From assembly GCF_022965805.1 (NCBI RefSeq), contig NC_133103.1:33389281-33453280 (forward strand): a DNA stretch of 64,000 nucleotides, in the 5' to 3' direction. Under the pieces are notes generated by a model. That model worked only from the letters and a program-made list of their open reading frames with translations. It made no database searches and was not told where the DNA came from. Position 1 is the stretch's first letter. Each line of letters begins with the position of its first letter. A program made the translations under genes and the position numbers. Source of the stretch: Primulina eburnea (lineage: Eukaryota > Streptophyta > Magnoliopsida > Lamiales > Gesneriaceae). Shown in pieces: positions 39,296-59,446 of this stretch.

Positions 39296-41074
39296 CTAGA
39301 GCCAACTACCCATATACTTCAGACCCATTGATTCGCGATGCTTCTCGAATGATGGTCCTGGTAAAGGCTTAGTTAGTGGATCAGCAACATTATTTGCGGA
39401 GTCGACTTTGTCAATCATGACATCTCCTCTTTCCACGATCTCTCTGAGGATGTGGTACTTTCTCAATACGTGTTTGGACTTCTGATGAGATCTCGGCTCC
39501 TTTGCTTGAGCAATCGCTCCCGTGTTGTCACAAAACACAGGGACAGGAGCAACTCCATTAGGAATGACGCCCAACTCTTGGACGAAATTCCTTATCCAAA
39601 CTGCCTCCTTTGCTGCAGCTGATGCAGCAATGTATTCTGCCTCAGTGGTGGAATCCGCTGAACTGTCTTGCTTGGAACTCTTCCAAGAGACAGCAGCACC
39701 ATTGAGCATGAATAGGAATCCAGAGGTTGACTTTGAGTCATCAATATCGCTTTGGAAGCTAGAGTCGGTATAGCCTTCCAATTTTAGTTCTCCACCCCCA
39801 TAGACCAAGAACAATTTATTGGTCCTCCTCAAATACTTGAGGATGTCTTTCACAGCTTTCCAGTGTGGAAGACCAGGGTTGGATTGATATCTACTCACTA
39901 CACTTAGTGCGAAGGCCACGTCAGGACGTGTAGATATCATCGCCGCTATCTCTTCATCAGTCTTGGGAGACATGGACTTGGATAGGGACACGCCATGACA
40001 CATTGGTAGATGTCCTCTCTTGGACTCATCTATCCAGAACCGCTTCAGGATGGTATCAATGTATGTGGACTGGGTGAGACCAAGCAATCTTTTTGATCTA
40101 TCTCTATAGATCTGTATTCTCAATACAAAAGATGCTTCACCCAAGTCTTGCATCGAGAACTTGCTTGCTAACCATATCTTAGTTGATTGCAACATTCCTA
40201 CATCATTCCCAATGAGTAGAATGTCATCAACATACAGCCCCAGGAATGTCACAGCACTCCCACTGACCTTCTTATACACACAGGGTTCCTCAGGATTCTT
40301 AGTAAAATCAAACTCTTTGATTGTACTATCGAATCTAAGGTTCCAACTCCTAGATGCCTGTTTTAGACCATAAATAGATCTCTGAAGTTTGCATACCATA
40401 TGCTCACTTCCGACAGATGTAAACCCTTCGGGTTGAGACATGTAAATTTCTTCCTTAATATCCCCATTAAGAAATGCTGTCTTAACATCCATCTGCCATA
40501 TCTCATAGTCATACCATGCAGCTATGGCTAGCAAAATCCTTATGGACTTGAACATTGCGACTGGACAAAAAGTTTCTTCAAAGTCAACTCCTTGTCTTTG
40601 AGTATATCCTTTTGCCACCAATCGCGCCTTGAAGGTCAATACCTTCCCATCCGCCCCAAGTTTCCTCTTGTAAATCCATTTGCACCCTATGGGAACAATT
40701 CCCTCAGGTGGATCCACGAGATTCCACACTTGGTTCGAATGCATGGAATTCATCTCAGATTCCATTGCTTCAAGCCACTTGGATGAATCGGCATCAGATA
40801 TTGCTTCCTTGAAGGTCCTTGGATCACATCCTAGGTTAGGCTCATCATGGTCCTCTTCAAGAAGCAGACCATACCTCATAGGTGGTCTCGAGACTCTCTC
40901 GGATCTTCTAGGAGCTTGTATCTCCTCTATTGGCTCTTCGGGTGTGGGTTCTATAATTGCGGGTGTCTCTCGAACTTCTTCGAGTTCTATCATCTCCCCT
41001 TTTCTATCCAATAGAAATTCCTTTTCTAAAAAAGTTGCATTCCCAGAAACAAACACTTTTGTTTCTTGGGGATG
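39296..41074 (-). pseudogene. F2 polyprotein, C-terminal part: linker, RT, RNase H
   Basis: It is in frame with the upstream part and separated from it by one UAG at 41075-41077. Visible: RT ([32 protein letters not shown]) and RNase H (YTDSSFQSDIDDSKSTSGF; STTEAEYIAASAAAKEAVWI; DPLTKPLPG). Between IAAM and ISTRPDV about 15 residues present in F1 are deleted in frame. No other break is seen. The stop and deletion suggest that this copy is inactive despite its youth. Confidence 0.88.
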
Positions 41075-43177
41075 CTAGAAGTAGTATCCAACCGAATTCT
41101 TTGGATATCCCACAAAGTAACATAAAATGGATCGACTATCCAATTTATCTCCCACTACCTGCTTCACATAAGTAGGGCACCCCCGTATTCTAAGATAAGA
41201 ATATTTGGGTGGCTTTCCCATCCATATCTCATATGGAGTCTTGTCAACTGCTTTTGAATGGACATTGTTCAACAACAGTGCCGCTGTCTCAAGCGCATAT
41301 CCCCAAAATGATGGCGGCAACTCCGTGAACCCCATCATAGACCGAACCATGTCCATCAAAGTCCGGTTACGACGCTCCGAAAAACCATTCAACTGTGGTG
41401 TAGCAGGCGGAGTCCACTGTGAGAGAATCCGATTCTCCCTAAGATTCTCTTGGAACTCGGCACTCAAGTACTCACCACCTCGATCCGATCGAAGTGCCTT
41501 GATGCTTCGTCCCAATTGCTTCTCTACTTCACTTCTGAATTCTTTGAACCTTTCAATGGCTTCAGATTTGTATTTCATCAAATACACATACCCATACCTC
41601 GAAAAGTCATCGGTAAAGGTGATGAAGTAGGCATGTCCATGCTTAGTAGTGATGCTAAGCGGATCGCACACATCGGTATGGATCAAATCCAATAACCCTT
41701 TGGCTCGCTTCACATGGCCCTTAAAGGGAATCTTGGTCATCTTTCCTTTTAGACAGGATTCACAAGTCGTGAGAGCATTAATATCGGACATATCAAACAC
41801 GCCCACTCCCACTAGCTTGTTCATCCTTCTTAGGGAAATATGTCCTAATCGAGCATGCCATAATTGTGCCGAATGAAGAGTATCTTGTTTGCGCTTGTTT
41901 GTTGTTGTTACAGCTTGGACATTGTTAAGTGGGATATCTTTCAATTTTACGGTGTAGAGATCGTTTTCAAGTTCTCCGGTACCAATTAAACATTCGTTCT
42001 TGTAAATGTTGCAAACACCTTTGCTAAATAAACAAGAAAATCCATCTTTGTCCAACATAGAAATGGAAATAATTTTTTTCACCAAATCTGGTACAAACAA
42101 AACATCTCTCAAAACAAACTTAAAATCATTGTTTAGATGCAAGTAAACATCTCCTACAGCCTTGGCAGCAACCCTTGCCCCATTGCCCATCCTTAAGAAG
42201 GTCTCACCTTCCCGGAGCCTCCTACTTCTTCCCATCACCTGCAAATCATTACAGAGATGTGAGCCACAGCCGGTATCCAATAACCAAGAAGTAGAGTTAA
42301 TTGAAATGTTTACTTCAATATAGAACATACCCTTTCCAGAACCCTTCTGGGCAAGATATTCCTTGCAATTACGCCTCCAATGTTCAGGCTTCTTGCAGTG
42401 ATGACAAATATCAACAGTCTTGTTTGCTTTATCTGGTGTAGCTACCACAACGGGACTCGGAGCTTGCCTCTTCAAGGGCACGTTCTTCTTGGGACGTTGG
42501 AAAGAACGCTTCTTCCTCTTCCCACGTGGCTCGGTCTTCGTACCAGATGAAGAACCCACATAAAGAACCGACTTCTCTTTCTTGATGGTGGACTCAAAAG
42601 TCACAAGCATGTTCACCAACTCCTCAAGGGTCGGTTCCATCTTGTTTATATTGAAATTCACCACAAAAGGATCAAACGAGCTAGGCAGCGATAACAGCAA
42701 CACGTCGGTGGTCAACTCCGAAGGCAACATCAAATCCATGCCAACAAGCTTGTCCACGAGTCCAATCAACTTTAGGCCATGCTCATGGACCGAGGCCCCA
42801 TCTCGCATGCGCAAAGTGATTAGCTCCTTGACGGTAGCATGCCTAAGAGGCCGAGTCTGCTTACCAAAGAGCTCTTTGAGGTGCAAATGAATGTCAGCAG
42901 GACTCTTTGCACCCTCAAAACGCCTCTGCAGCTCATCATTCATAGAAGCCTGCATATAACACTTGGCCTTCAAGTCATGGTCACACCAATCCTTGTAGGT
43001 CTGCAATTCCTCAGGAGTGCAGTCAGTCGGAGCCTTATCAGGGGGCGACTCATTTAGTGTATATGCAATCTTTTCCGAGTTCAAGACAATTTTCAGATTT
43101 CTTAGCCAAGTGAGGTAGTTAGGTCCGGTTAACACATGTTTTTCGAGTATGGCAGAAGGATTGCGAATTGAAGACAT
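41075..43177 (-). pseudogene. F2 polyprotein, N-terminal part: gag, protease, integrase
   Basis: The start is the ATG at 43177 (MSSIRNPSAI); the frame is open further upstream, but gag homology begins here. Order: gag with FEGAKSPADIHLHLKELFGK, zinc knuckle CHHCKKPEHWRRNC, protease SWLLDTGCGSHLCND, integrase zinc region (HARLGHISLRRMNKL...CESCLKGKMTK), catalytic Asp in HTDVCDPLSITT, Asp in LRSDRGGEYL, Glu in NGFSERRNRTL. It ends at a UAG where F1 has a Tyr codon. Confidence 0.9.
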
Positions 43178-44952
43178 TGTCAAATAGTACTGAAAAGTAA
43201 ACAGATAAATGTTAATGACTATTTTAAAATATTTAGTAAGATATAAAGTATGGACTTTAACTTTATAAATGTTTACTCCCACTGTTTTGACATCTTTTAC
43301 TACCCTCTAGTGAAAACGGGAAACTCCTTTCCTCAGTAGGTACGTAAGGTCCAATTAGCGAATCATGATCCCGAATAATATCAGCCAATCACAATTCCTA
43401 AAAGGTAGTTTCCAATTGCATCACAATGCAACCCTCTACGTAAACTTTTGTCTCACGTTTGATTAGGACCCAATAATATGACGTCGTTCATCTTCACGTG
43501 TCAAGCCTTACCCGTCGATGTTGAACCTTAATGGACTGTCGCCATGAGTTCCCCCAATAATATGAGCCGAAATCATGGGAGTTCCACGTAGTTCACATCA
43601 CCATGTCAATGGATGTCACAGCTTTCCGGCACCCAAAGCTCCCCCAATAATATGAGCCGAGCCCCGAGTACGGGTAGCGTTCATCATGCACCCATTGTCG
43701 ATGGAAGACAAGGAAATTATAAACAAATTTATAATTCCTCTTTTCGGGCTTGATATTAATTTTGAATCTTATTCAAAATGAGGGTTTTTAATTTTGAAAG
43801 GTCTCATCATTAATTTTATTTAAAAGCTCGCCATGTTTGATCGTATGTTTGCCGGATTCATGCAACTTTGTTATTATCATAATAATAACGCACATACTCA
43901 TTATTTATAACATATCATGCATATATTATAAATAGTAAACAAAACAAGGATGATCAATCGCCCCAATACTAACGGACCGTGTGAGCTAAACATGGGCCTA
44001 GGTCCAATCCTAGGGTAAATGCACGGGATGCAATGCAACTATTACATTAGCTTCCAATATTTACATGTCTTCGATCTTCATAATCATCATGGCCACCATC
44101 TTCCAATCTTGATCATCCACTATACTAATATTTACAAATAAATATCCATGGCAAATAGGGATACATCTCATGGGGTGGGAACGGGCCATAAACCAAGCCC
44201 ACTTTATAAATTTATAATTATTACAATCATTCAACACAAAATATCCTAGCATACACCTAGCAAATTGGGCTTGGGCTTTTGATCATCCTTCATGCATAAT
44301 ATCACATATCATACACCATCAATTAATTATCACAATAATTAATTGATCCAATATTATATATCTTGATCCAATCACTAACCGCCACGATTATAAACTAAAT
44401 TAACAAAGTATACAAACACCTTTGTCTACTTTCAAATTAATTTATTTATAACCGAATGTCTTATAAATCACCATTTACTATAAATATTTAAAGTCCAACT
44501 TAAAATATTTATTTCATGAGAAAATATTTGCAACTTTGTTATTTTAAACTTAAGGGCCCTAAAATTATTTTTCACCAAAAACCGTTTTGGCCCATTTAAA
44601 ATCACAAACATGTTAGCCATCTAATGGCCCAACAACTCAAGGCCCATGACACTTTGATAATCCAAAACACTTTTGGAAAACCCTAGTCGTCATCGCCGTC
44701 GCCGGATTCCGGCCACAAAAAATTTTTTTTTTATTTTTAAAAGAGGGGCGTTCGGGCAGCCCCTCGGGCTGCCCTTGCTGCCCGAAACGGGCAGCCCCTC
44801 GGGTAGCCCGAGCTGCCCGACACGGGCAGCAACAAGCTGCCCGAAATGTCCCCAAAAAGGCCTTGGTATTTTGTTGCAAAAAATACACTCATGCGGTTAG
44901 AAATCGATCTCATCATAATATCTTGTATTTGCTACACAAAAACGTAACCATA
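43178..44952 (-). other. F2 leader, about 1.8 kb, untranslated
   Basis: No gene is supported. The 20-base phrase CCCCCAATAATATGAGCCGA occurs at 43551 and 43641, with looser copies near 43372 and 43470, all in a stretch rich in ATG-containing short frames. Toward the PBS it has a GC-rich hairpin cluster (44754-44830). Confidence 0.6.
44754..44830 (-). repeat. Three consecutive perfect hairpins in the F2 leader
   Basis: Stems GGGCAGCC/GGCTGCCC (44754-44774), GCTGCCCG/CGGGCAGC around a three-base loop (44777-44795), and the same stem again (44812-44830). The block is the only GC-rich part of the leader and lies about 120 bases from the PBS. A packaging or dimerisation role is a guess. Confidence 0.65.
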
Positions 44953-44966: not shown

Positions 44967-47023
44967 TGAAAGGGGATCGGTTACGGTGGCCGGAAGCTCA
45001 AAAATTTCGATTTTAGCATATAAATTTCGGCCACCTAGATTTTGTGTAGGAAATACAATAAAACACCAAAATGACATTCATAGTGTGTTTAGAAATAGTT
45101 ACCTATCAACCTCTTAAGGTTGATGATGGCTCCAACTTAGTTGATATACAACTAAGCTCTTGATGGCAAGACAATCTACAAGCTTCACCTTGTTCTTGAA
45201 TCTTTCCTTCAAAATTAGGCCCACCACTAGCAAACTAGAACCCCTTTTATTTTGCACTAGAAAAATAAAAGGATTTTTCAAGGAGAAGTATTTTTCTTCC
45301 TCAACACTTGAAGAGAAAAATTGAGAGAAAACTTGAGAGAATTATGCATCAATATTTCGGCCATTGTATGTATCAATGGGGAGAAGGGAGACTTGTCTTG
45401 GTCTTGCAAAAAGTAGAGACAAAAGTAGCATGCCAAGCCTTGATAGTTGCAAAAGTTGTCTCCAACCCTTCACCTCCCATGCATGCATATTATATGGTTT
45501 ATTATCAAAATAAAAACCATGGACTAAATTTAATTATCTCAAACATATTTGAGACTAATTAAACATTACTTGAATTTACCCAAGTCCCACTAGTTAAATA
45601 ATTAATTTAAATTGAGCTCTACAAGACTCAATATAATTTAATTAATTCAACACTTGAATTAATTTAATTATTTGGACTCTACTAGGTCCACTAGTGTTTA
45701 ATTAATTCAACACTTGAATTAATTTAATTTAGTCCATAATAATGTTTATGAAAATCACAATTTTCAAATACATTATTCAATTGGCCAAATTTTAATTTAG
45801 GAATACTTCCATAAATTAAAATTTACATTTCTCTCATAGAAGTCATACTTCTATTTTTCCTTACACTTATAAACTCATTTATAAGTCGTTCAACACATTG
45901 AACTATTTTTTACTTCTCAACAGGATCTAGAAAGCCAGCACTTGTGTGGCCCTCAATGGTTCATTGATACAACTAGCTGTGGGTTCACATCTCCATGTGA
46001 TTCGGACTAAACATGTCCTTATATGCGCATACCCCAATTGCTCCATTCTTACTTATCAACTCTTTGATAACAAGAACGTCAGAACTCAAGTCTGATAGCA
46101 CCCAACGAATCATGTTAAACGCCTAGCAACATCGCTTACATGATTCCCTAGGTATCAAATGATAGTGCCTGCAAGAACCATTCAATTATGGTTAGCGTAC
46201 AGTACGGTCCCTTCAACTCATATATCCCGACCGATTCGACAACCATTGGTTTATCGAGAGTTGTCAATGAATCGATACTATGTGTCATGTTGTAGTTGCA
46301 TCGATGGTGTAATCTATGAAACCCCTTTGATAATTACCACCATACTCTGATCAGAGATTTCAATCTACATACACATGAGAACACATAGGATATCCATACC
46401 CGAAGGTAAGCGGTGAATCCCCGACTACAATGCATCGACTCCTATATGTTTCGACAGAACACCCAACCTTGCCACCTGATGACCCCATGAGAGTCGGTAA
46501 ACAAGCCAAAGTGTAATTCTAGCACATAGAGTCTCAATGTTGTCCCGGGTCATAAGGAATAATGGTGTACAACCATAAACTAGGGCTATTCCACTCGATA
46601 AGTGAGAACCACTTGGAAAGTCCTTTTATGGAGGGTTGTTCAGTGCACTCTACAAGGAGCACCTATCTGCATGTTCGGACATCACAATGTCCCCTACCAA
46701 TGAAACATGGTACTCACATCGCAGATACTAGTCTCTAACTCGAGCGGCCTATATCCTTCTTAGTGGCGGCTGAATCGACTAGGAACCGTTTAGAATATAC
46801 AGTATTCCAAATATGAGTTTCATGATACTCATCATATGAGCATCTCATATTCTTTCTACTATTTGTATATTCAAGGACTTTATCTATGCAACTAGCATGG
46901 GTATACAGATAAAGATGCGCCAATATAATAATTCAAATATTATTAAAATAAAGATCGTTTATACATAGAGTTTCATCGTGAACACTCGGCCAACACTTGG
47001 CTCGACGGGCACCTACTCTAATA
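44967..47023 (-). repeat. 5' LTR of F2
   Basis: 2057 bp. The plus-strand right end reads CTAATA in place of CTAACA, so the terminal CA has mutated. TSD follows at 47024. Confidence 0.92.
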
Positions 47024-47897
47024 GACTGCACTTGGGACACAAAGGCTTCTCAGGATCAAATGGAACTGCCGGTGGTTTAGGACTCAGCTCTATTTTGCCT
47101 TTCACTTTGAAACGATCCTTTCCTCTTTGATTTGAACCCTGGCCTCTCTGAGCAATGGCCTGCTGCCTCGCCTGTCTTTCCCTGGCAATGTCTTTCTCAT
47201 CTTGCTCGGCAAACAAAGCCTTAGCCACAATCTCTTTAAATGTCACAGCCTTCGACATGTTGATATCTCTCCGAATCTCTGCTCGAAGGCCTCGAATGAA
47301 ATGAGCACCCTTATCTTTGTCATTGGAAGCAATATATGGGACAAACAGACAGCCCTCCTCAAACTTCAAGATGTACTCATCAACATTCATACCTCCTTGT
47401 CAAAGCTCCAAGAACTCAGTCACCTTCCTGGCTCGAAGTGCGTCTGGGAAGTACTTGTCATAAAACAGATCAGTGAACTCTTGCCATTTCAATGCTGGAA
47501 CGTCAACACCAACCTTAGTAGAATTCCACCAAATGCGTGCAGCTTTGACTAACATGAATACTGCACAACTGATTCTGTCCTTGTCTTCGTAGTTGAGATG
47601 ATTGAAAATCGCTTCAAGAGCTTTGATCCATTCTACGGCTATCAATGGATCAGTGCTTCCTGCAAATTCAGGCAGATCCATCCTCTTGAAAGCAGTAAAG
47701 ATGCCATCGGTACCAACTGTTTGAGCTACCTGACCTCTACGCTGTCCTCTACCTTGGCCTGTACCTTGCATACGTAGCAACTGCTGGATCTGCTCACTAT
47801 GGATCTTGGCTTGCTCTTTCAACAACCTGCCGAACTCATCGACAACTCTAGAGGAAGAACTATCCTCACCCTCTACTGCTTTCCTCTTAGGAGGCAT
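47024..47897 (-). pseudogene. H gag, N-terminal and capsid part
   Basis: The start codon is exactly at 47897-47895 (MPPKRKAVEGEDSSSS). The capsid region shows FKRMDLPEFAGSTDPLIAVE, WWNSTKVGV and FTDLFYDKYFPDALRARKV. A UGA stop at about 47400 interrupts the phrase before QGGMNVDEYILKFEEG. The zinc-binding tail (CPKC...) continues at 37212 after F2. Element J inserted at the start codon. Confidence 0.88.
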
Positions 47898-49466
47898 GTT
47901 GCGACTTTGATTGTTGCACTCCCAAGAGCAGGTTGTCCACAAGTAGTATAATTCGGTGAGTCCGAATATCGTATCCACAGGGAAGCTAAGGTAATTACAA
48001 GTCCACTACAATGTCTTTTTGTTTTTGTTTTTGTTTCTTTTTAATTTTAATTGAATCTTTAATGGGTAAATTTTAATTGTTCAAATTTAAATTTAAGTAG
48101 TTGAGATTAAAGGATCCACTCTTGGTATTTTAATAAAGTTAACATTAACGAACAATATTGAAATCCACTTAATAAAATGGTTCCAATATATTAAATAATC
48201 ATATTTATATTATGTTATAAATTATAATCTTATAAGTACATAATATATACCAAAACTTATAAATGTGGTCAAGTATTTATTGTGCTATATATATTTGTAA
48301 ACACTAAATCAAGGTTCCCACTTTAAATGGTTGGTAAAACCAAACAAACATTTAAATGGTACCAATAAATTAATACTATAATATATTCATATATAATAAA
48401 TCAAGGAATCCAAGTTAAATGGTTGGTAAAACCAAACTAACATTTAAATGGTTCCAAGAATTTAATATTATAATATATTTATATATAATAACTCAAGGCA
48501 TCCATTTTAAATGGTTGGTAATACCAAACTAACATTTAAATGGTTCCAAGAATTTAGTGTAACATATAGCAACAATAAATCAAAACTCCCACTTATAAGT
48601 AGGGTATAAAAATGCTTAAAGAAATAAATATAACATAAACAATAAATAATGATTAAATAATATAAAACATAGATTCTTACCTTATAATAACCTTATTATC
48701 ATGCCAAGAGCTTCACCTTATCATCTCAACTTTAGGAAGTTAGCTATTCATTATTCAAAGTGTAAAACTTTGAATATGAAATTAACATGCTAATTATATT
48801 TAAATGAAGAAATAAAAGAAAAATATAGAGAGAAATATTATGAACTCAAAGATTTGTTCATAGAATGAGGGATATCTCAATACATTACAATGCACCCCTA
48901 TTTATAGCCAAATTTGGGGAGACAACCACAAATAAAATATTATTTTTTACACATAAGTCTTCATTGGTGTTCCAAGAAATTAATATTATATTGCACATCA
49001 CTTTTGACAAGCATCTTCTTTGAATTTTCTTCTTCACATAAAATGAAACATGTGGATAATTGAGTTGTCTAGTTGTGGTATTTTTTTCAGAATATTTGAC
49101 CAAGTAGTTTGAGAGATATGGTCAAAATACTAGAGCATGGTAAAACTGCCACTCCTTCGGTAACTTTAATTGTTGCTTAATTTGATCCCAATTGTGAGAG
49201 GATTTTTATCTCATGCTTGCCACCAATATTGTAGATATTAACATCAACTTTCTACAGGTCCAAGAATCATCTTAATCCCATTTGCAACGCCAAGGTTATT
49301 CTTGTTTTATCGAACCTGTAAAAATAGTAAAAACTTATAATTACACAACAACTTATATTTTATACAATTTATTATAAAACATATAATATTTAAAAATTTA
49401 ATAAAACAAAAACTATATATTTATATTATAAAACATTTAATTAATGTACAATTTTTATGTTTATCA
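47897..49466 (-). repeat. 3' LTR of element J
   Basis: On the minus strand TGATAAACAT at 49466 to GCAACA at 47897. It contains three 92-bp tandem repeats. A 72-codon open frame at 49103-48885 is repeated in the other LTR and is probably chance. Confidence 0.95.
48306..48555 (-). repeat. Three 92-bp tandem repeats in J LTR (also 58149-58398)
   Basis: Units start at AAATCAAGG (48306), AAATCAAGG (48398) and AACTCAAGG (48490). Each contains TTTAAATGGTTGGTAA and CATTTAAATGGT. The same three units occur in the 5' LTR 9843 bases to the right. Confidence 0.75.
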
Positions 49467-50722
49467 CACCTCCCAACCAGCTTATTGCTAGTCCCTAGCA
49501 ATTTAAGCGTTAATAGCAATACAAAACATATTGATTAATTTAAATAGAAATGTAATCAGAACTATCTAAGTGTTTAAATAAAATTTGAAAACTGTCAAAG
49601 TTATATCAAGATCATCATAATTATAATTTATGAAATAATTTGAGATGATTAATTCAAAGCTTATTTTAGGTAGTTAAATGTACACGGCCTTCAGAAATTC
49701 CTAGTAAGAGTCTCAACTCCATATCCTCACAGGTTAATAAATGTTTCAATTTATGGCAACGATTTCTCTCATGGAGTTGGAATACAGATAAATGCTCAGA
49801 AAAATGGTTTACAGAATGCAGACAGACAAACGAGCCAAACTAATCAAAAGATAGAAAATCAATTGATTTAAAATCCAGTTGTTCTTATTATATTTTTTTT
49901 TCCTGATTTTTTTTTTTTTTTTTTACATCATGGAATCAGACTAAGTTTATGCTTTTTGACCACATATTTATTTAATTTGTACAATGTATTTCTCTCTTTC
50001 TTTTTTTATTTATTTTTTTATTTTTTTATTCTTATGAGAGAAAAATGGGTCGCAGCATATAACTTAAAAATTACATAGATCTTCAACATCTTTCTTTTTG
50101 TATTTTTCTTTTTTTTTCTTTTTTTTTTTCAGGAAATATATATTTTTTTTTTCAAAATAAGAACTCAAGATCTAAACAATAGATAGTCTCTCTCATGATC
50201 AATAAAGGCTCGAAAGCTGTTTTCTCAGTCCTCTCCACTCACTCACAAAATATGTGTGAGTTCAAAAATTTTAGGCACTCTTATAAGGTATATCTTGGGC
50301 CATATACTTTACTACCTAATTTTATCACAATGGTTAATCACTCAAAAAGATTTCATAAATCATATTTTTATATTGATCAGAATATTAAAAATGACCTTTT
50401 TTCAAATAAAATTTAAACATTCTTAAATAGATTAATGCATGTTCTAATTTAAATCTTTCAAATATGTAATGTATGACATTTTTGCAAAAAATTACTAAGG
50501 TACAAACAATAAACATGGTTTTATTTTAAAATAATATTTAATTTTTTTTTAAATTTGTTTTTTTTTTTTTTTTATATGTGTTCTCCCCCCAATCAGAATA
50601 TGACATTGTCCCTAATGTCAAAATAGCTATTAATAAAGAGTACATAATGAAAGAGATATCACCTGGAACTTTATTGAAGATAACAAACTGAAACAAACAC
50701 AAACCAATCCACGACTTTTGAA
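49467..50722 (-). other. Element J 3' untranslated region and polypurine tract
   Basis: No convincing gene. Next to the LTR the minus strand reads GGTTGGGAGGTG, the polypurine tract, preceded by the small hairpin TGCTA-GGGAC-TAGCA (49486-49500). From 49890 to 50160 and around 50550 there are long T runs on the plus strand, i.e. A-rich on the coding strand. A 73-codon plus-strand frame at 50195 has no recognisable features. Confidence 0.7.
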
Positions 50723-51361
50723 TCAATGATCCAACTTCCTTTTCTTACTGCTTGATTGCGACCAATTGATCTTTGTTATCATCGGATCAGGCTTATGAAC
50801 AAAAGCTTCCAAATCATCAATTAATTGATCGGCAGTCGAAGCACAGATGAGCATCCGTCGTGAATTTTCTGAAATGAAATTCTGTTCCACAGCTTTATCA
50901 AGAAATGTCAACAAACTGTCATAATAATTATTGATATTCAACAAGCCCACGGGTTTATTATGGATATTAAGTTGTGCCCAAGAAACAGTGTGAAAAATTT
51001 CTTCTAATGTACCAAAACCACCTGGTAGTGCGATAAAAGCATCAGAATTTTCAATCATTTGAGTGATTCTTTCATACATAGAAGAAACTTTTAATTCCTC
51101 CCCAATCGTAACACCTGTAATATTTCCTTCAGCTAAAGCTATAGGAATAATACCCAATACCTGACTACCTCCAAGATGAGCAGATGTTGAAACAGATCCC
51201 ATTAACCCAATATTACCTCCCCCATATACCAAGTGAATTTTTCTCTCAGCCAATATCTTTCCAAGATTATTCGCTGCTTCTACAAACACTTCATTTTTTC
51301 CAGGACTCGACCCACAAAATACACAAATATTTTTCAATGTTTGTGCAGAGGATCCAGTCAT
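50723..51361 (-). CDS. LOG-like: Cytokinin riboside 5'-monophosphate phosphoribohydrolase (LOG family), retrotransposon cargo
   Basis: LOG enzymes cleave cytokinin nucleotides to free active cytokinin and ribose 5-phosphate in the cytosol or nucleus. The 212-residue product covers the whole family length: CVFCGSSPGK (13-22), YGGGNIGLMG (46-55), the signature PGGFGTLEE (113-121), and SWAQLNIHNKPVGLLNINNY downstream. R98 and E121 of the catalytic set are kept; the usual M-H-x-R-K motif is M-Y-E-R-I (95-99), so His and Lys are changed. The C-terminus is basic (SSKKRKL), possibly a nuclear signal. I start at 51361 because homology begins there; an upstream in-frame ATG (51499) would add 46 residues, partly hydrophobic. 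Plant LOG genes normally have introns; this one has none, so it came through RNA. It lies in element J between the NABP-like gene and the 3' LTR. Confidence 0.93.
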   Translation of the reverse strand: MTGSSAQTLKNICVFCGSSPGKNEVFVEAANNLGKILAERKIHLVYGGGNIGLMGSVSTSAHLGGSQVLGIIPIALAEGNITGVTIGEELKVSSMYERITQMIENSDAFIALPGGFGTLEEIFHTVSWAQLNIHNKPVGLLNINNYYDSLLTFLDKAVEQNFISENSRRMLICASTADQLIDDLEAFVHKPDPMITKINWSQSSSKKRKLDH

Positions 51362-51384
51362 GTTTTTACTTTCCTTTTTTTTTT

Positions 51385-51422
51385 TTCTGCGAAAGTAGAA
51401 AGAAAGATGAGAGATTTTATAG
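51385..51422 (-). promoter_or_regulatory. Possible TATA box and splice acceptor before LOG
   Basis: On the minus strand CTATAAAATC (51422-51413) lies about 55 bases before the LOG start, and a pyrimidine-rich TTTCTACTTTCGCAG ends at about 51388. Either could explain how a gene 6 kb inside the element is expressed: its own promoter, or splicing from the leader. The two are alternatives. Confidence 0.4.
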
Positions 51423-51573
51423 GGGTAATATGTTATCATGACAAAACTATGGGTCACAGCTGTAAACAGAATAAATAGTAAAAAAATAATGACACACATG
51501 CTTATAAACAGTAGTGTGATTGTGGCTCACAATTTTCCTCTGGTTTTACGTCCAGAAACGGCTTCAACGCCTT

Positions 51574-52119
51574 CTATGAGTCGAGGATATGCTTCCCATC
51601 CAATTTTCTTATAAATTGGCAAACAGGGTCTTTTTTAGTCAGATTCCCAAGACTATGACGCTCATCTTGAAATTGTTTCCATAAACGGAGAAGTTCAATA
51701 TGCACATGTCCACTAGAATGCGTCTCAAGAGTCAATAAGATGTTATCTAAAGACTCCTTACTCAGCCCATTCTTAATGAAATCAATTTTATCTTCTCTGT
51801 TATTGGAAACACATCCCAAAGATCTGCATCGTTTGTCACAAGTCCATCTTGCACACTTATGACAAACCCCTAAACTTTTGGCCCTTCGTTTTTTCGCATA
51901 AGTGCTTTTTCCTAATCCAGGCAAATACCGAATAAGCAATGATTGTGGAACTTCTCCTCCTAATCGGACCTTAGCTTCTATTACAAGACGAATATCTTCT
52001 GGAATTCCTTTTTGCATTAGTAATCTCAATCTTTCACACCTTCCTGCATAAATTTTTCTTAGAACATTTTCAGAAACAGAGGGAAAATATTTACAAATTT
52101 TTGAGAGAATTTCATCCAT
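51574..52119 (-). CDS. Carlavirus-type nucleic-acid-binding protein homologue (cysteine-rich), retrotransposon cargo
   Basis: The 181-residue frame begins at the first ATG (52119); the open part upstream has none. After a helical N-terminus it shows GKSTYAKKRRAKSLG (70-84), a basic patch, followed directly by Cys at 86, 89, 94, 98 and 103 (C-x2-C-x8-C-x4-C usable as a zinc finger), then DFIKNG. This order, including GxSxYAxxRRA before the finger, is what I know from the nucleic-acid-binding proteins of carlaviruses and relatives, several of which suppress RNA silencing and enter the nucleus. The C-terminal 60 residues are extra and unrecognised. The match rests on motif order only. It follows pol by 224 bases and precedes LOG by 212. 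I consider it a captured viral gene; an unrelated retrotransposon zinc-finger protein is the alternative. Confidence 0.7.
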   Translation of the reverse strand: MDEILSKICKYFPSVSENVLRKIYAGRCERLRLLMQKGIPEDIRLVIEAKVRLGGEVPQSLLIRYLPGLGKSTYAKKRRAKSLGVCHKCARWTCDKRCRSLGCVSNNREDKIDFIKNGLSKESLDNILLTLETHSSGHVHIELLRLWKQFQDERHSLGNLTKKDPVCQFIRKLDGKHILDS

Positions 52120-52343
52120 TTTGAAAAGAAAAGAAATGATTTTTTTTTTTTTAAATTTTTGTATCAGCAATTGTGGGAAACTGATTTAACCGACTATGAG
52201 AGTCACGGAGTACCGTTATCCGCCATTTAACCGGGAAAATAAAAAGATTAAGAAAACCTGAAATAAAAACAAACAATAATCAAATGCAACACAAAAAAAA
52301 AAAATCAAGGATCAGAAAGGGAAATAAACTCTTCTTGAAAGAT

Positions 52344-55232
52344 TTAATTTTCCAAAAATGGTTTAAGCCTTTGTCCATTCACTTTAAAAACATCACCATT
52401 TTTAGGATTTTCAATATCCACAGCTCCATAAGGATACACATGCTTTATAACATATGGGCCTGTCCATCTTGATCGTAATTTTCCTGGGAATATGTGAAGT
52501 CGAGAATTATAAAGCAAAACTTTTTTACCAATCTCAAAAGATTTTCTAAGAATTGTTTTATCATGAAATGATTTGATTTTTGCTTTATAAATCCTTGAAT
52601 TCTCATACGCATCATTTCTGAGTTCATCAAGTTCATTAAGTTGCAATTTACGCAATTTGTTGGCATCATCAATGCTTGAATTTAAAGTTTTTATCGCCCA
52701 ATAAGCTTTATGTTCCAATTCCACAGGCAAATGACAATGTTTTCCATAAACCAACCTATAGGGAGACATATTCAATGATGTTTTAAAAGCTGTTCGATAT
52801 GCCCACAGTGCATCATTAAGTCGCAGAGACCAGTCTTTTCTATTTGAGTTAACAGTTTTTTCCAAAATTTGCTTTATCTCCCTATTAGCTAATTCAACTT
52901 GTCCATTTGTTTGAGGATGATAAGGAGTTGTTACTTTGTGAGTAATACCATATTTTTTCATTAATGAAGCAAATGGTTTATTAACAAAGTGAGTTCCCCC
53001 ATCACTTATCATAGCTCGAGGAATTCCGAATCTACTAAAAATATTTTCTTTCAAAAATTTGATGACGATTTTATGATCATTTGTTCGACATGGAATTGCC
53101 TCTATCCATTTGGAAACATAATCAACTGCAACTAAAATATACAAGTATCCAAACGACGGTGGAAAAGGTCCCATAAAATCTATTCCCCAACAATCAAATA
53201 TTTCAATTTCAATGATAGGATTCAAAGGCATCATGTTTCTTTTTGAAATCGCACCCAATTTTTGACAATTTTCACAGATCTTGCAGATTTCGTGGGTGTC
53301 TTTAAACAAAGTGGGCCAATAAAATCCACACTGCAAGATTTTTGCAGCTGTTTTCTTTGAAGAAAAATGTCCCCCGCATGCTTCTGAATGACAAAATTTA
53401 ATGACACTACTTACCTCATTGTCGGGTATGCAACGTCGAAAAATTTGATCCGGACAATACTTGAACAGATACGGATCATCCCAATAAAAGTTTTTTACCT
53501 CATTCAAAAATTTTCTTTTATCTTGGGAACTCCATTGCGGTGGCATTTTTCCTGTCACAAGAAAATTTACTATGTTAGCAAACCAAGGTGTAGTAGTAAC
53601 TGAAAATAGATGTTCATCAGGAAAATTATCGTTAATTGGTGTCATTTCAAAAGATGATCCTGTTACTAGTCTCGATAAATGATCGGCTACGACATTCTCG
53701 GTTCCTTTTTTATCTTTGATTACAATGTCAAATTCTTGGAGCAACAAAATCCATCGTATCAGTCGTGGCTTTGCATCCTGTTTGGTCAACAAATATCTAA
53801 TAGCAGAATGATCAGTAAACACGATAGTTGTTGATCCAATCAAATAAGAACGAAATTTATCTAATGCAAATATTACAGCAAGTAGCTCTTTTTCAGTTGT
53901 GGAGTAATTCATTTGAGCATTGTTTAAAGTTCTACTTGCATAATATATCACATAAGGCTTACCGTTTCTTCTTTGACCCAATACTGCACCGACTGCATAA
54001 TCACTCGCATCGCACATGATTTCAAATGGTAAAGACCAATCAGGAGGTTGCATGATAGGAGCTGATGTTAAATGTCGAATGATTTTATCAAAAGCATTTT
54101 GACATTCTTGAGTCCACTCAAATGCACTGTCTTTTGTTAAGAGGTTACAAATGGGTTTAGAGATTAAACTAAAGTCCTTTATAAACCTCCTATAAAATCC
54201 AGCATGTCCCAAAAATGAGCGAATTTCTTTAATGGTTTTTGGAGGGGGTAAATTGGCAATGACATCAACTTTTGCTTTATCGACTTCAATTCCATGAGAT
54301 GACACGACATGTCCCAAAACAATTCCAGAAGTAATCATGTAATGACATTTTTCCCAATTTAAAATAAGACCTTTTTCCTCGCATCTTTTTAAAACTTTTT
54401 CCAAATTTTCAAGACAATTATCAAATGTATTCCCAAAAACAGTTAAATCATCCATAAAAATTTCCAAACAATTTTCAACCATGTCGCAGAAAATGCTTAG
54501 CATACATCTTTGAAATGTTGCTGGGGCATTGCATAAACCAAATGGCATCCTTCTGAATGCAAATGTTCCAAAAGGACATGTGAATGTAGTTTTTTCTTGA
54601 TCTTCGAGTGCAATGGGAATTTGATAATAGCCTGAATATCCGTCAAGAAAACAGTAGTAGGGATGACCTGCTACTCTTTCTAAAATTTGATCCAAAAATG
54701 GTAATGGAAAATGATCTTTTCTAGTGGCGTCATTTAATTTTCTATAATCAATACACATCCGCCAACTAGATGGGACTCGACTTGTTAACAATTCACCTTT
54801 TTCATTTTTTATCACTGTGATGCCAGATTTTTTTGGAACTACTTGTGTTGGGCTTACCCACTTACTATCAGAAATAGGGTAGATAATTCCAACATCAAGT
54901 AGTTTGAGAACTTCAGTTTTCACAACATCTTTCATGTGTGGATTTAATCTCCTTTGTGGTTGTTGAGATGTTTTTGCATTTTCTTCTAAGTGAATTTTGT
55001 GTGTGCAAATTAGTGGATTAATGCCCTTAAGATCTTTTAGTGTCCAACCAATTGCATTTTTATGTCTTTTAAGCATATCAACTAATTTACCTTCTTGATT
55101 ACTTGAGAGTTTGGAAGAAATTACCACCGGATATGTTTCATCTTCTCCAAGAAATGCATACTTCAATTCTTCTGGCAAGGGTTTTAACTCCAATACTGGT
55201 GGTTCGTCTTTGTTCTCATATTTTTCATCAAA
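52344..55232 (-). CDS. pol: Element J pol: reverse transcriptase, RNase H, integrase
   Basis: The open frame follows the gag stop directly in the same frame; the first Met is at 55193, giving 949 residues. From that Met: RT with [10 protein letters not shown] (146-154) and active site FMDDL (246-250); RNase H with [10 protein letters not shown] (D396), TEKEL and [10 protein letters not shown]; integrase with a zinc site (H602, H609, C640, C643) and the D672, D731, E767 triad in [16 protein letters not shown] and [15 protein letters not shown] and the tRNA-Asp PBS indicate Athila. It ends at integrase; there is no chromodomain. No frameshift or missing catalytic residue is visible, so the enzyme looks competent if expressed. 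Confidence 0.95.
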
Positions 55233-57551
55233 TTATTTCTCTGATCCTGGTAACGAGTGATACCTGAAAAAATCGTCAAGATCAATTTCAATATTTTCTT
55301 TAACAGTTTCAATTGAACAAATATCTAATTGATCACGAGTACTCCCTTCTTGAATGTTTTCTTCCACAAGAGTTTCAATAAGATTTTCATCTTCACTTTC
55401 ATCTCCTTTGTCATGTGGTTGCTTACAAAGATTAAAAACATTGAGCTCCAAGGTCATGTTACCAAATGACAACTTCATTATTCCATTCCTGCAATTTATA
55501 AGAGCATTAGAAGTTGCTAAAAATGGACGACCTAAAATTACAGGAATTGCATTACAAGCTTCAATAGGTTGTGTATCTAAAACTATGAAATCGACAGGAT
55601 ATACAAAGTTATCAACTTGGACCAACACGTCTTCTACCATACCTCTTGGCACTTTAACAGATCTATCAGCAAGTAAAAGTGTTACCGAAGTAGGTTTTAA
55701 CTCGCCTAGATTGAGTTCTTGATAAACTGAATATGGAAGTAAATTCACACTAGCTCCAAGGTCAAGCAAGGCTTTTTTAATCTTTCGTTCTCCAATAATA
55801 CACGAAATAGTAGGACAACCAGGGTCTTTGTATTTCAAAGCATTATTATTTTGAATGATTGCACTTACTTGTTCGGCTAAAAATGCTTTCTTTTTCACAT
55901 TCAATTTTCTTTTCACAGTGCACAAGTCTTTCAAAAATTTGGCATATGATGGTACCTGTTTTATTACATCTAATAAAGGAATATTAACTTTTACTTGTTT
56001 AAAAATATCATATATATCAGAATTCAAATTTGATTTTTTTGTATTTTTCAATGCATGAGGGAATGGTGGTGACACTGTCTGTTGAACCTCCTCTTCGCAA
56101 GTTATGGGTTCCACTTCCTTACCCTTTGGAGTTGATTTATCATCATCTTCACAAGGTTCAAGAATGGATTTTTCCACAACCTTACCACTTCGAAGGGTAA
56201 TAACAGATTTTACCTGATCCATCGGTTGAGTTCCAGAAGTTCCAATTTGTGTATGATGATCCTTGGGATTAGGCAGAGGTTGTGAAGGAAATTTACCTTT
56301 TTCATGAACATTAAGTGCAGATGCAAATTTAGCAAGAGTATCTTTCAAGTCTGTCATGGTTTGAGCAGTTTGAGTATTGATAGACTCTTGCTTTGCAATG
56401 AAAGAATTCAATGTATCTTCCAAATTTCTTTTCGGCGGAGGAACATAAGGTGCATAATTTTGAAAATTTTGTTGATTTTGAAAATGTGGTTGCGGAAATT
56501 GTGCAGCATTATCATTCCTCCAACTAAAATTTGGATGATTTCGCCAACCTGAATTGTAATTTTGAGAAAATGGTTCAAAATTTGGCCTTTTGAAATTGTT
56601 CAAAATATTGGCTTGCTCATGGAGACATTCTTTAAAAGAGGGCAAAGTGGGACAATCTTTTGTAAAATGATCACTTGTATCACAGATGTGACACACAATT
56701 TCTTGAACAGATTTTAATTGACCATTCTTTTTCAATTCAAGTGCCTCAACTTTTCTTGCCAAAGAGGTAAATCTAGCTTGAAGATCATGTTCATCTTTGA
56801 GAGTGTACATACCTCCACCAGATGTAGGAGATTGAATCTTGTTTGACGGTTCGATTGTACCTATAGTGTCCCAATTTTGAGCATTTTCAGCTAATGAATC
56901 GAGATACTCAATTGCCTCGTTCGGATCTTTATCTTCAAATGTTCCATTACACATAAATTCAACCATTTGCCTATCTTTAGGTGTTAAGCCTTCATAAAAT
57001 TGAGAAACAACTCTCCAAATTTCAAAACCATGATGTGGACAAAGATTAAGCAATTCTTTGTATCTATCCCAACACTGATAAAAAGTTTCTCCTTGTTTTT
57101 GAGTGAAAGTGATGATTTGCCTTTTGAAAGAATTTGTTCTATGAGATGGAAAAAACATTTTCAAAAATTGTTGTTGCAATTCATCCCAAGTTCGAATGGA
57201 TCCCGATCTAAGATTTTGTAGCCAAGTTTTAGCTTTATCTTTTAAAGAAAAAGGAAAAAGCTTAAGGCGAATGGTGTTCATGCTACAATTTAGATCATTA
57301 TATGTGTTGCACACTTCTTCAAACTCTCGTAAATGCATGTATGGATTTTCAGAATCTAAGCCATGAAAGTTGGGTAAAAGTTGGATAATACCAGGCTTAA
57401 AATTGAAATGAGATGCATCAGGGGGAAAAACTAGACATGAAGGTGCACTAGTACGTGTAGGATTCATGTGATCTCTAAGTGTTCTTCGTCTATCATGATC
57501 ATGTTGAGATTGAATTTCATCTTCATTTTCTTGGATGGGTTCTTCCGCCAT
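55233..57551 (-). CDS. gag: Element J gag and protease
   Basis: Start at ATG 57551 (MAEEPIQENEDE); the frame upstream lies in the leader. 772 residues: gag core (WLQNLRSGSIRTWDELQQQF; FYQCWDRYKELLNLCPHHG), a zinc knuckle CHICDTSDHFTKDC, a Pro/Gln/Asn-rich stretch, and a C-terminal protease ALLDLGASVNLLP (Asp near 597) with VILGRPFLAT. DLGAS in place of DTG/DSG is usual for Athila relatives. The frame ends in a UAA at 55235-55233 and pol continues in the same frame immediately afterwards. Confidence 0.95.
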   Translation of the reverse strand: MAEEPIQENEDEIQSQHDHDRRRTLRDHMNPTRTSAPSCLVFPPDASHFNFKPGIIQLLPNFHGLDSENPYMHLREFEEVCNTYNDLNCSMNTIRLKLFPFSLKDKAKTWLQNLRSGSIRTWDELQQQFLKMFFPSHRTNSFKRQIITFTQKQGETFYQCWDRYKELLNLCPHHGFEIWRVVSQFYEGLTPKDRQMVEFMCNGTFEDKDPNEAIEYLDSLAENAQNWDTIGTIEPSNKIQSPTSGGGMYTLKDEHDLQARFTSLARKVEALELKKNGQLKSVQEIVCHICDTSDHFTKDCPTLPSFKECLHEQANILNNFKRPNFEPFSQNYNSGWRNHPNFSWRNDNAAQFPQPHFQNQQNFQNYAPYVPPPKRNLEDTLNSFIAKQESINTQTAQTMTDLKDTLAKFASALNVHEKGKFPSQPLPNPKDHHTQIGTSGTQPMDQVKSVITLRSGKVVEKSILEPCEDDDKSTPKGKEVEPITCEEEVQQTVSPPFPHALKNTKKSNLNSDIYDIFKQVKVNIPLLDVIKQVPSYAKFLKDLCTVKRKLNVKKKAFLAEQVSAIIQNNNALKYKDPGCPTISCIIGERKIKKALLDLGASVNLLPYSVYQELNLGELKPTSVTLLLADRSVKVPRGMVEDVLVQVDNFVYPVDFIVLDTQPIEACNAIPVILGRPFLATSNALINCRNGIMKLSFGNMTLELNVFNLCKQPHDKGDESEDENLIETLVEENIQEGSTRDQLDICSIETVKENIEIDLDDFFRYHSLPGSEK

Positions 57552-57717
57552 GTTTTGTAAAAATAAAGGGTTATTTCTAATGAGTCGACCACTAAGTGTA
57601 CGTGACCAAATGCTCATGCAAATGCAAAACAAAAAGAAAAAAAAAACACACAAAAGCAATAAAAAGAAAAATAAACTTTAAACAATATTAAATAGACTTG
57701 AAATTAAATTATACTTC

Positions 57718-57733
57718 CCCGGCAACGGCGCCA
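57718..57733 (-). promoter_or_regulatory. Primer-binding site of element J (tRNA-Asp)
   Basis: The plus strand CCCGGCAACGGCGCCA equals the 3' end of plant tRNA-Asp over 16 bases including CCA. It is the primer used by Athila-type elements. Confidence 0.93.
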
Positions 57734-57739
57734 AAAACT

Positions 57740-59309
57740 TGTTGCGACTTTGATTGTTGCACTCCCAAGAGCAGGTTGTCCACAAGTAGTATAATTCGGT
57801 GAGTCCGAATATCGTATCCACAGGGAAGCTAAGGTAATTACAAGTCCACTACAATGTCTTTTTGTTTTTGTTTTTGTTTCTTTTTAATTTTAATTGAATC
57901 TTTAATGGGTAAATTTTAATTGTTCAAATTTAAATTTAAGTAGTTGAGATTAAAGGATCCACTCTTGGTATTTTAATAAAGTTAACATTAACGAACAATA
58001 TTGAAATCCACTTAATAAAATGGTTCCAATATATTAAATAATCATATTTATATTATGTTATAAATTATAATCTTATAAGTACATAATATATACCAAAACT
58101 TATAAATGTGGTCAAGTATTTATTGTGCTATATATATTTGTAAACACTAAATCAAGGTTCCCACTTTAAATGGTTGGTAAAACCAAACAAACATTTAAAT
58201 GGTACCAATAAATTAATACTATAATATATTCATATATAATAAATCAAGGAATCCAAGTTAAATGGTTGGTAAAACCAAACTAACATTTAAATGGTTCCAA
58301 GAATTTAATATTATAATATATTTATATATAATAACTCAAGGCATCCATTTTAAATGGTTGGTAATACCAAACTAACATTTAAATGGTTCCAAGAATTTAG
58401 TGTAACATATAGCAACAATAAATCAAAACTCCCACTTATAAGTAGGGTATAAAAATGCTTAAAGAAATAAATATAACATAAACAATAAATAATGATTAAA
58501 TAATATAAAACATAGATTCTTACCTTATAATAACCTTATTATCATGCCAAGAGCTTCACCTTATCATCTCAACTTTAGGAAGTTAGCTATTCATTATTCA
58601 AAGTGTAAAACTTTGAATATGAAATTAACATGCTAATTATATTTAAATGAAGAAATAAAAGAAAAATATAGAGAGAAATATTATGAACTCAAAGATTTGT
58701 TCATAGAATGAGGGATATCTCAATACATTACAATGCACCCCTATTTATAGCCAAATTTGGGGAGACAACCACAAATAAAATATTATTTTTTACACATAAG
58801 TCTTCATTGGTGTTCCAAGAAATTAATATTATATTGCACATCACTTTTGACAAGCATCTTCTTTGAATTTTCTTCTTCACATAAAATGAAACATGTGGAT
58901 AATTGAGTTGTCTAGTTGTGGTATTTTTTTCAGAATATTTGACCAAGTAGTTTGAGAGATATGGTCAAAATACTAGAGCATGGTAAAACTGCCACTCCTT
59001 CGGTAACTTTAATTGTTGCTTAATTTGATCCCAATTGTGAGAGGATTTTTATCTCATGCTTGCCACCAATATTGTAGATATTAACATCAACTTTCTACAG
59101 GTCCAAGAATCATCTTAATCCCATTTGCAACGCCAAGGTTATTCTTGTTTTATCGAACCTGTAAAAATAGTAAAAACTTATAATTACACAACAACTTATA
59201 TTTTATACAATTTATTATAAAACATATAATATTTAAAAATTTAATAAAACAAAAACTATATATTTATATTATAAAACATTTAATTAATGTACAATTTTTA
59301 TGTTTATCA
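57740..59309 (-). repeat. 5' LTR of element J
   Basis: 1570 bp, same length as the 3' LTR at a constant offset of 9843. No mismatch found on inspection of several hundred bases. It should contain the promoter, but I see no clear TATA box beyond the general AT-richness. Confidence 0.95.
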
Positions 59310-59446
59310 AGGCATAACTCCTACAATGTGCTCACACAATACATATCAATATATAATATTGAATAGATGTAGAAGAAGACATACCCATACAGTTGAAAGT
59401 AGACGAAGTCATATGCATTGGTCCGAAGAACGGTGCTCTGATACCA
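59310..59446 (-). promoter_or_regulatory. H leader and primer-binding site (tRNA-iMet)
   Basis: Short leader between the interrupted H gag start and the LTR. PBS at 59435-59446 reads TGGTATCAGAGC on the minus strand, exact for initiator tRNA-Met. The first five bases are the TSD of J. Confidence 0.85.

Follow-up and report, generated by a model that had tools for sequence, protein, structure and literature searches.

The window analysed here, a 64,000-nt stretch of the Primulina eburnea genome (contig NC_133103.1, positions 33,389,281 to 33,453,280), contains a complete Athila-like Ty3/gypsy retrotransposon that carries two accessory reading frames behind pol, the second of which encodes a LOG-family protein. 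The element is laid out as follows:

47897..59309, minus strand: complete Athila-like Ty3/gypsy element, bounded by identical LTRs and a target-site duplication (TSD)
57740..59309, minus strand: 5' LTR, 1570 bp, same sequence as the 3' LTR
47897..49466, minus strand: 3' LTR, 1570 bp, same sequence as the 5' LTR
47892-47896 and 59310-59314: TSD AGGCA, 5 bp, flanking the element
57717..57733, minus strand: primer binding site (PBS) TGGCGCCGTTGCCGGGG, the same site as in family-B copies
55233..57659, minus strand: gag and aspartic protease frame, 808 aa (Pfam PF03732, PF13650)
52344..55193, minus strand: pol frame with RT, RNase H and integrase, 949 aa (Pfam PF00078, PF17917, PF17921, PF00665)
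52258..52272, minus strand: putative 3' splice-acceptor-like site 5' of the cysteine-rich ORF, found by eye, similar in family B
51574..52119, minus strand: accessory ORF 1, carlavirus-type cysteine-rich nucleic-acid-binding protein, 181 aa, by its Carla_C4 match
51387..51401, minus strand: putative 3' splice-acceptor-like site 5' of LOG, found by eye
50723..51361, minus strand: accessory ORF 2, LOG7-derived protein by sequence placement, 212 aa, with altered pocket and basic C-terminal tail
49467..49483, minus strand: polypurine-tract (PPT)-like site adjoining the 3' LTR

With two LTRs, TSD, PBS, PPT and open gag and pol frames, the element has the features of an autonomous LTR retrotransposon. 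The original prediction of an intact, intronless LOG gene between pol and the 3' LTR, inside the TSDs of a complete element, is confirmed by the identical 1570-bp LTRs and the 5-bp TSD, and the predicted PGGxGTxxE signature is present as PGGFGTLEE. The primer binding site is presumably of the tRNA-Asp type, and the Athila label reflects a presumed resemblance of the proteins and of this site. Neither a chromodomain nor an extra RNase H domain was listed for gag and pol in the Pfam scan. Both extra ORFs sit between pol and the 3' LTR; extra ORFs are found in most OTA elements, according to the relevant passage of PMC6317226. Judged by eye, a pyrimidine-rich stretch ending in CAG lies upstream of the cysteine-rich ORF in both families of the element described below, and a CAG-ended site precedes LOG in both, the one of family B being less pyrimidine-rich. 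Env-like RNAs of barley Bagy2 are spliced, as a passage of PMC7264820 states, and by likeness to Bagy2 the cysteine-rich ORF and LOG may be read from spliced RNAs.

Further features were observed around these genes. Both families share a strongly conserved non-coding block 5' of the cysteine-rich ORF (window ~52170-52245, core 52207-52224; ~570-640 in locus L009), while the ORFs on either side of it differ at about one third of their residues. It is possibly an RNA or translation signal, and its RNA fold is not the same between variants. Elsewhere in the window (39296-43282 and 47013-47978) we observed two frames (586 and 735 aa) that look like a polyprotein of Ty1/copia type, together with gag pieces of what is presumably another gypsy-type element, the latter being the insertion target of the LOG-bearing element.

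In the 812-Mb host assembly, two families of the element could be distinguished. Family A, to which the window copy belongs, was scored at at least 150 LOG places (of 1464 first-look candidates) that are 98-100% identical, 149 of the 150 being stop-free. Family B, whose LOG shares ~68% amino-acid identity with that of the window, was scored at 80 places of 82-100% identity, 57 of them stop-free by hand count and some partial. Since the scored places are the best-scoring copies, these numbers overstate the integrity of LOG copies. A LOG-independent sample was therefore drawn from the gag side, comprising 20 of 150 gag places, chosen by eye down the list, at which 801 bases at the expected LOG position were read. 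LOG was matched in 15 copies, 12 of them full-length and stop-free; of the other three, L063 has a stop, L075 is frameshifted and L080 is truncated by the edge of the fetched sequence. Five copies showed no match at the position read; in two of these an intact LOG follows gag in the same orientation, 4.9 and 4.5 kb further on, and one of the other three has LOG upstream of gag instead (C9:20836603). Counting the 15 matches and the two placed further downstream, LOG is present in 17/20 gag-selected copies and intact in 14/20, in a gag list that is itself biased toward well-kept copies. Presence in most sampled copies, by which the original prediction was to be judged, is thus found here. Of 58 fetched loci, a non-random set of best-scoring LOG places, 56 have the cysteine-rich ORF as well as LOG; it lies upstream of LOG on the same strand, is in some cases partial, and was not found at L039 and L054. 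A recently active, very abundant element family is the best explanation. One public record, P0130 ('LOG3-like [Primulina eburnea]'), representing family B, matches 11 top-scoring places at 100% (G000:C1:5220777-5221403 and others, L009-L019); a gene of the retrotransposon is here annotated as a hormone gene of the host.

Selection was assessed by Nei-Gojobori dN/dS using 17 family-A loci, hand-chosen from 28 fetched by leaving out near-duplicates and incomplete ones, together with family-B loci, 30 for LOG and 25 for the cysteine-rich ORF. In comparisons across families, dN/dS is 0.198 for LOG (dN 0.247, dS 1.247; 510 pairs), well away from the value near 1 expected of a pseudogene, and 0.212 for the cysteine-rich ORF (425 pairs), these ratios being approximate, since a dS above 1 approaches saturation and the pairs are non-independent. 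In single-pair comparisons of the window element with L059 or L062, pol gave 0.075-0.076, RT/RH 0.086-0.088 and gag-PR 0.192-0.195, and against L062 LOG gave 0.193 and the cysteine-rich ORF, over its first 140 residues, 0.144, so that the constraint on LOG is similar to that on gag and weaker than that on pol. Judged by their codon substitutions, both accessory ORFs are under purifying selection between families. Within families the ratios are weaker, at 0.419 (A) and 0.529 (B) for LOG and 0.606 (A) and 0.549 (B) for the cysteine-rich ORF, which fits copies drifting after insertion.

The donor of the gene, which the original prediction had left to a LOG phylogeny, was sought with the window protein and 118 relatives, picked by similarity to it, together with 116 plant LOGs, for which P0230, AtLOG3 and AtLOG8 served as similarity queries; P0122 and P0123 were left out as chimeric. 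Most of these 119 proteins are element-type by similarity, location in elements being established for few. In the FastTree phylogeny all 119 form one clade (support 1.0) within the LOG7 group (support 1.0), with Asteraceae sequences nearest to the clade (supports on the path 0.958 and 0.613). In an IQ-TREE phylogeny of 58 sequences the clade is nested likewise, on a stem of length about 0.65; the exact sister of the clade is not to be trusted, because the printed IQ-TREE labels may be shifted by re-rooting. By its place in these trees, the element LOG is derived from a plant LOG7 gene and shares common descent with plant LOGs. Named carriers are Primulina, Populus, Reevesia, Diplodiscus and Xanthoceras, which belong to Lamiales, Malpighiales, Malvales and Sapindales. 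Evidence for location in elements is direct for Primulina (two families) and for P0122 of Xanthoceras, and the many LOG loci of Reevesia suggest the same there. P0122 (Xanthoceras sorbifolium, 359 aa) consists of two LOG pieces joined by sequence like the gag of the window element and is probably a recombinant element. When pieces of AtLOG3 were used as queries for host LOG exons, both result lists looked like element copies throughout.

The window protein has the PF03641 domain and the LOG fold, as found by Pfam and fold search, the latter also returning SLOG-domain sensors such as ThsA at a lower Z of about 11. In CgLOG, the relevant section of PMC4979012 gives Arg99 and Glu122 as proposed catalytic residues; the prenyl site proposed there comprises Met96, His97, Lys100, Glu125 and Trp129 and is the same in AtLOG3, OsLOG and CpLOG. 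The window protein keeps Arg99 and Glu122, but three of the five prenyl-site residues are changed (His97Tyr, Lys100Ile, Glu125His), the site reading Met, Tyr, Ile, His, Trp; the originally predicted intact hormone-activating enzyme is thus not supported by the pocket. All 116 plant LOGs carry M, H, R, K, E, E, E and W at positions 96, 97, 99, 100, 121, 122, 125 and 129, and the Lys and Glu of the pocket are present also in the Pseudomonas 5zbj and B. subtilis 1t35 structures. Among the 119 element-type LOGs, R99 is kept in 115, E122 in 116, W129 in 117, M96 in 109 and H97 in 47, whereas position 100 is M (43), L (40), I (32) or K (4) and position 125 is H (59), Q (52), E (4) or other (4). The canonical pocket is found in four members, P0160, P0230, P0233 and P0234, which are the earliest-branching, P0230 and P0160 being from Xanthoceras. 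From this residue pattern, the pocket change looks like a coordinated shift in one lineage rather than decay. The element LOGs further differ at the C-terminus, where a basic cluster lies within the last 22 residues in 108 of 118 element-type versus 1 of 116 plant LOGs, and an LxLxL motif within the last 12 residues in 99 of 118 versus none of 116. We take the basic tail to be NLS-like and the LxLxL ending to be EAR-like, a putative TOPLESS co-repressor-binding motif. The window protein itself ends in KKRKLDH, basic without LxLxL, and family B in KKRKFM, likewise without LxLxL. Since pocket residues are replaced in most element-type LOGs and an NLS-like tail is added, the label of a cytokinin-activating enzyme is doubtful, and we file the protein as LOG7-derived and not as a proven cytokinin enzyme.

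The cysteine-rich ORF (51574-52119) matches Carla_C4 with 30.6 bits against a Pfam cut-off of 20.9, while Viral_NABP stays below its cut-off of 23 (22.1 and 22.4 in two scans). Its core consists of a basic KKRRAK followed by C-x2-C and further cysteines, and its predicted structure is of poor quality, with a mean pLDDT of 54.8. We found 367 relatives at E <= 1e-3, the best 120 of which include proteins from Xanthoceras, Populus, Rhamnella, Acer and Orobanche; among 20 relatives chosen for alignment, Carla_C4 was matched by 20 and Viral_NABP by 18 (E <= 0.01). In viral contigs, 153 stretches matched a search pattern, none of which was confirmed as a viral relative. Two pairs of records lie on contigs of equal size (P0032/P0126, 8723 bases; P0015/P0190, 4511 bases), and these equal sizes by themselves suggest that the pairing with LOG exists elsewhere too. 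In family B (L060-L062) the C-terminus of the ORF is shortened, the old C-terminal sequence lying out of frame just downstream (L062). Carla_C4-like proteins are also widespread in eudicot sequence (P0081, P0101, P0104 from Orobanche gracilis, and others), one cluster having 566 member sequences, and elements with such a gene may therefore have a wider distribution than those with LOG. With the carlavirus protein the element protein has the Carla_C4 domain, the basic stretch and the cysteines in common, as compared by sequence alone and with viral sequences through the Pfam model; in contrast to it, the element version resides in a retrotransposon instead of an RNA virus and has its own flanking regions. 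The carlavirus protein acts in nucleic-acid binding and silencing suppression in viruses, and by analogy the element protein might suppress silencing as well.

We propose a model in which an abundant Athila-like family carries, in the env position, two long-retained accessory genes, and in which LOG would be a nuclear phosphoribohydrolase of altered base specificity that serves the element; our confidence in this model is evenly balanced. Both accessory proteins would be made from spliced RNAs, and LOG would act in the nucleus on nucleoside 5'-monophosphates. Together, LOG and the cysteine-rich protein might blunt host control of the element or shift the nucleotide or hormone state of the cell in its favour, so that LOG would be kept for element fitness alongside a virus-type nucleic-acid-binding partner. 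A wider version, which we offer tentatively and consider somewhat unlikely to hold in full, is that a retrotransposon lineage present in several eudicot orders remade the hormone enzyme it had captured as a nuclear hydrolase of LOG fold acting on a new substrate, often LxLxL-ended and then perhaps able to recruit TOPLESS, and paired it with a virus-type zinc-finger protein as a host-manipulation cassette.

The kept catalytic residues leave a real rival, namely that the LOG of the element activates cytokinin in the ordinary way, raised free cytokinin favouring the dividing, meristematic cells that transmit the element. Fold, signature and LOG7 descent agree with it, and because Mycobacterium marinum LOG (MmLOG) also differs at the prenyl site (text of PMC4979012), changed residues there need not abolish cytokinin activity. 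We nevertheless consider it unlikely, since Lys100 and Glu125 are each replaced in 115/119 element-type LOGs but kept in all plant LOGs of the set and in both bacterial structures. Less likely again is a non-catalytic use of the LOG fold as nucleotide-binding sensor, decoy or nuclear scaffold, with LxLxL-ended members perhaps binding TOPLESS: the distinctive tails and the SLOG sensors of the fold search would suit it, but a pure scaffold has no need of the nearly invariant Arg99 and Glu122, and LxLxL is absent from the window LOG and from family B. That LOG is a passenger transduced by chance and of no use to the element, or that the locus is an assembly join, we reject as extremely improbable, since transduced genes in LTR elements do exist but usually in one or few copies (as stated in part of PMC7264820), whereas this gene occupies at least 230 scored places in two families, is paired with the cysteine-rich ORF, is constrained between families and has relatives in several plant orders.

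Contrary to the original prediction, a LOG-family domain in elements of this kind had been described: section 12 of PMC9289625, citing Steinbauerova 2011, states that a YgdH (LOG-family) domain occurs in Gypsy elements of Citrus and, without a frequency filter, of Populus, which like the window element are plant Ty3/gypsy elements with a LOG-family domain. That section gives presence alone, without partner gene, selection, pocket change, tail or LOG7 origin. The same paper also mentions an AlkB-type RNA demethylase in Gypsy elements of Phalaenopsis, likewise an enzyme domain that a Gypsy lineage captured and retained, but a different enzyme whose activity was shown in vitro, whereas the window LOG is known from sequence. 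The VANC anti-silencing proteins of VANDAL transposons (PMC5735166) offer an analogy of a plant-transposon accessory protein acting on host control, in another transposon class and with another protein, such action being conjectural here. Plant LOG7 cytokinin riboside 5'-monophosphate phosphoribohydrolases, the ancestor group, have fold, PGGxGTxxE and catalytic Arg and Glu in common with the element LOG, in which Lys100 and Glu125 are replaced, a basic tail is added and the coding sequence is part of a multicopy element. In the open-licence literature, consulted mostly as titles and abstract openings, we did not find the two-gene arrangement, the LOG7-nested clade, the pocket change or the tail, and a 2026 gene-capture review (PMC13317346) has no occurrence of cytokinin, LONELY or YgdH. 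LOG in Gypsy elements is therefore known, and these four features are apparently new within that literature.

In public annotation, copies of the element are taken for LOG genes of the host, as P0130 is, and can thus mislead surveys of cytokinin gene families. Three Populus LOGL10 records (P0164, P0175, P0214) with the same pocket and tail are probably further element copies annotated as host LOGs. Loss of Lys100 and Glu125 together with the basic tail sets most element copies apart from host LOGs. If our model is true, the family would be a clear example of a plant retrotransposon that, under selection, has kept and reworked a hormone enzyme of its host along with a virus-type protein, and the old question of extra-ORF function in plant elements would become testable.
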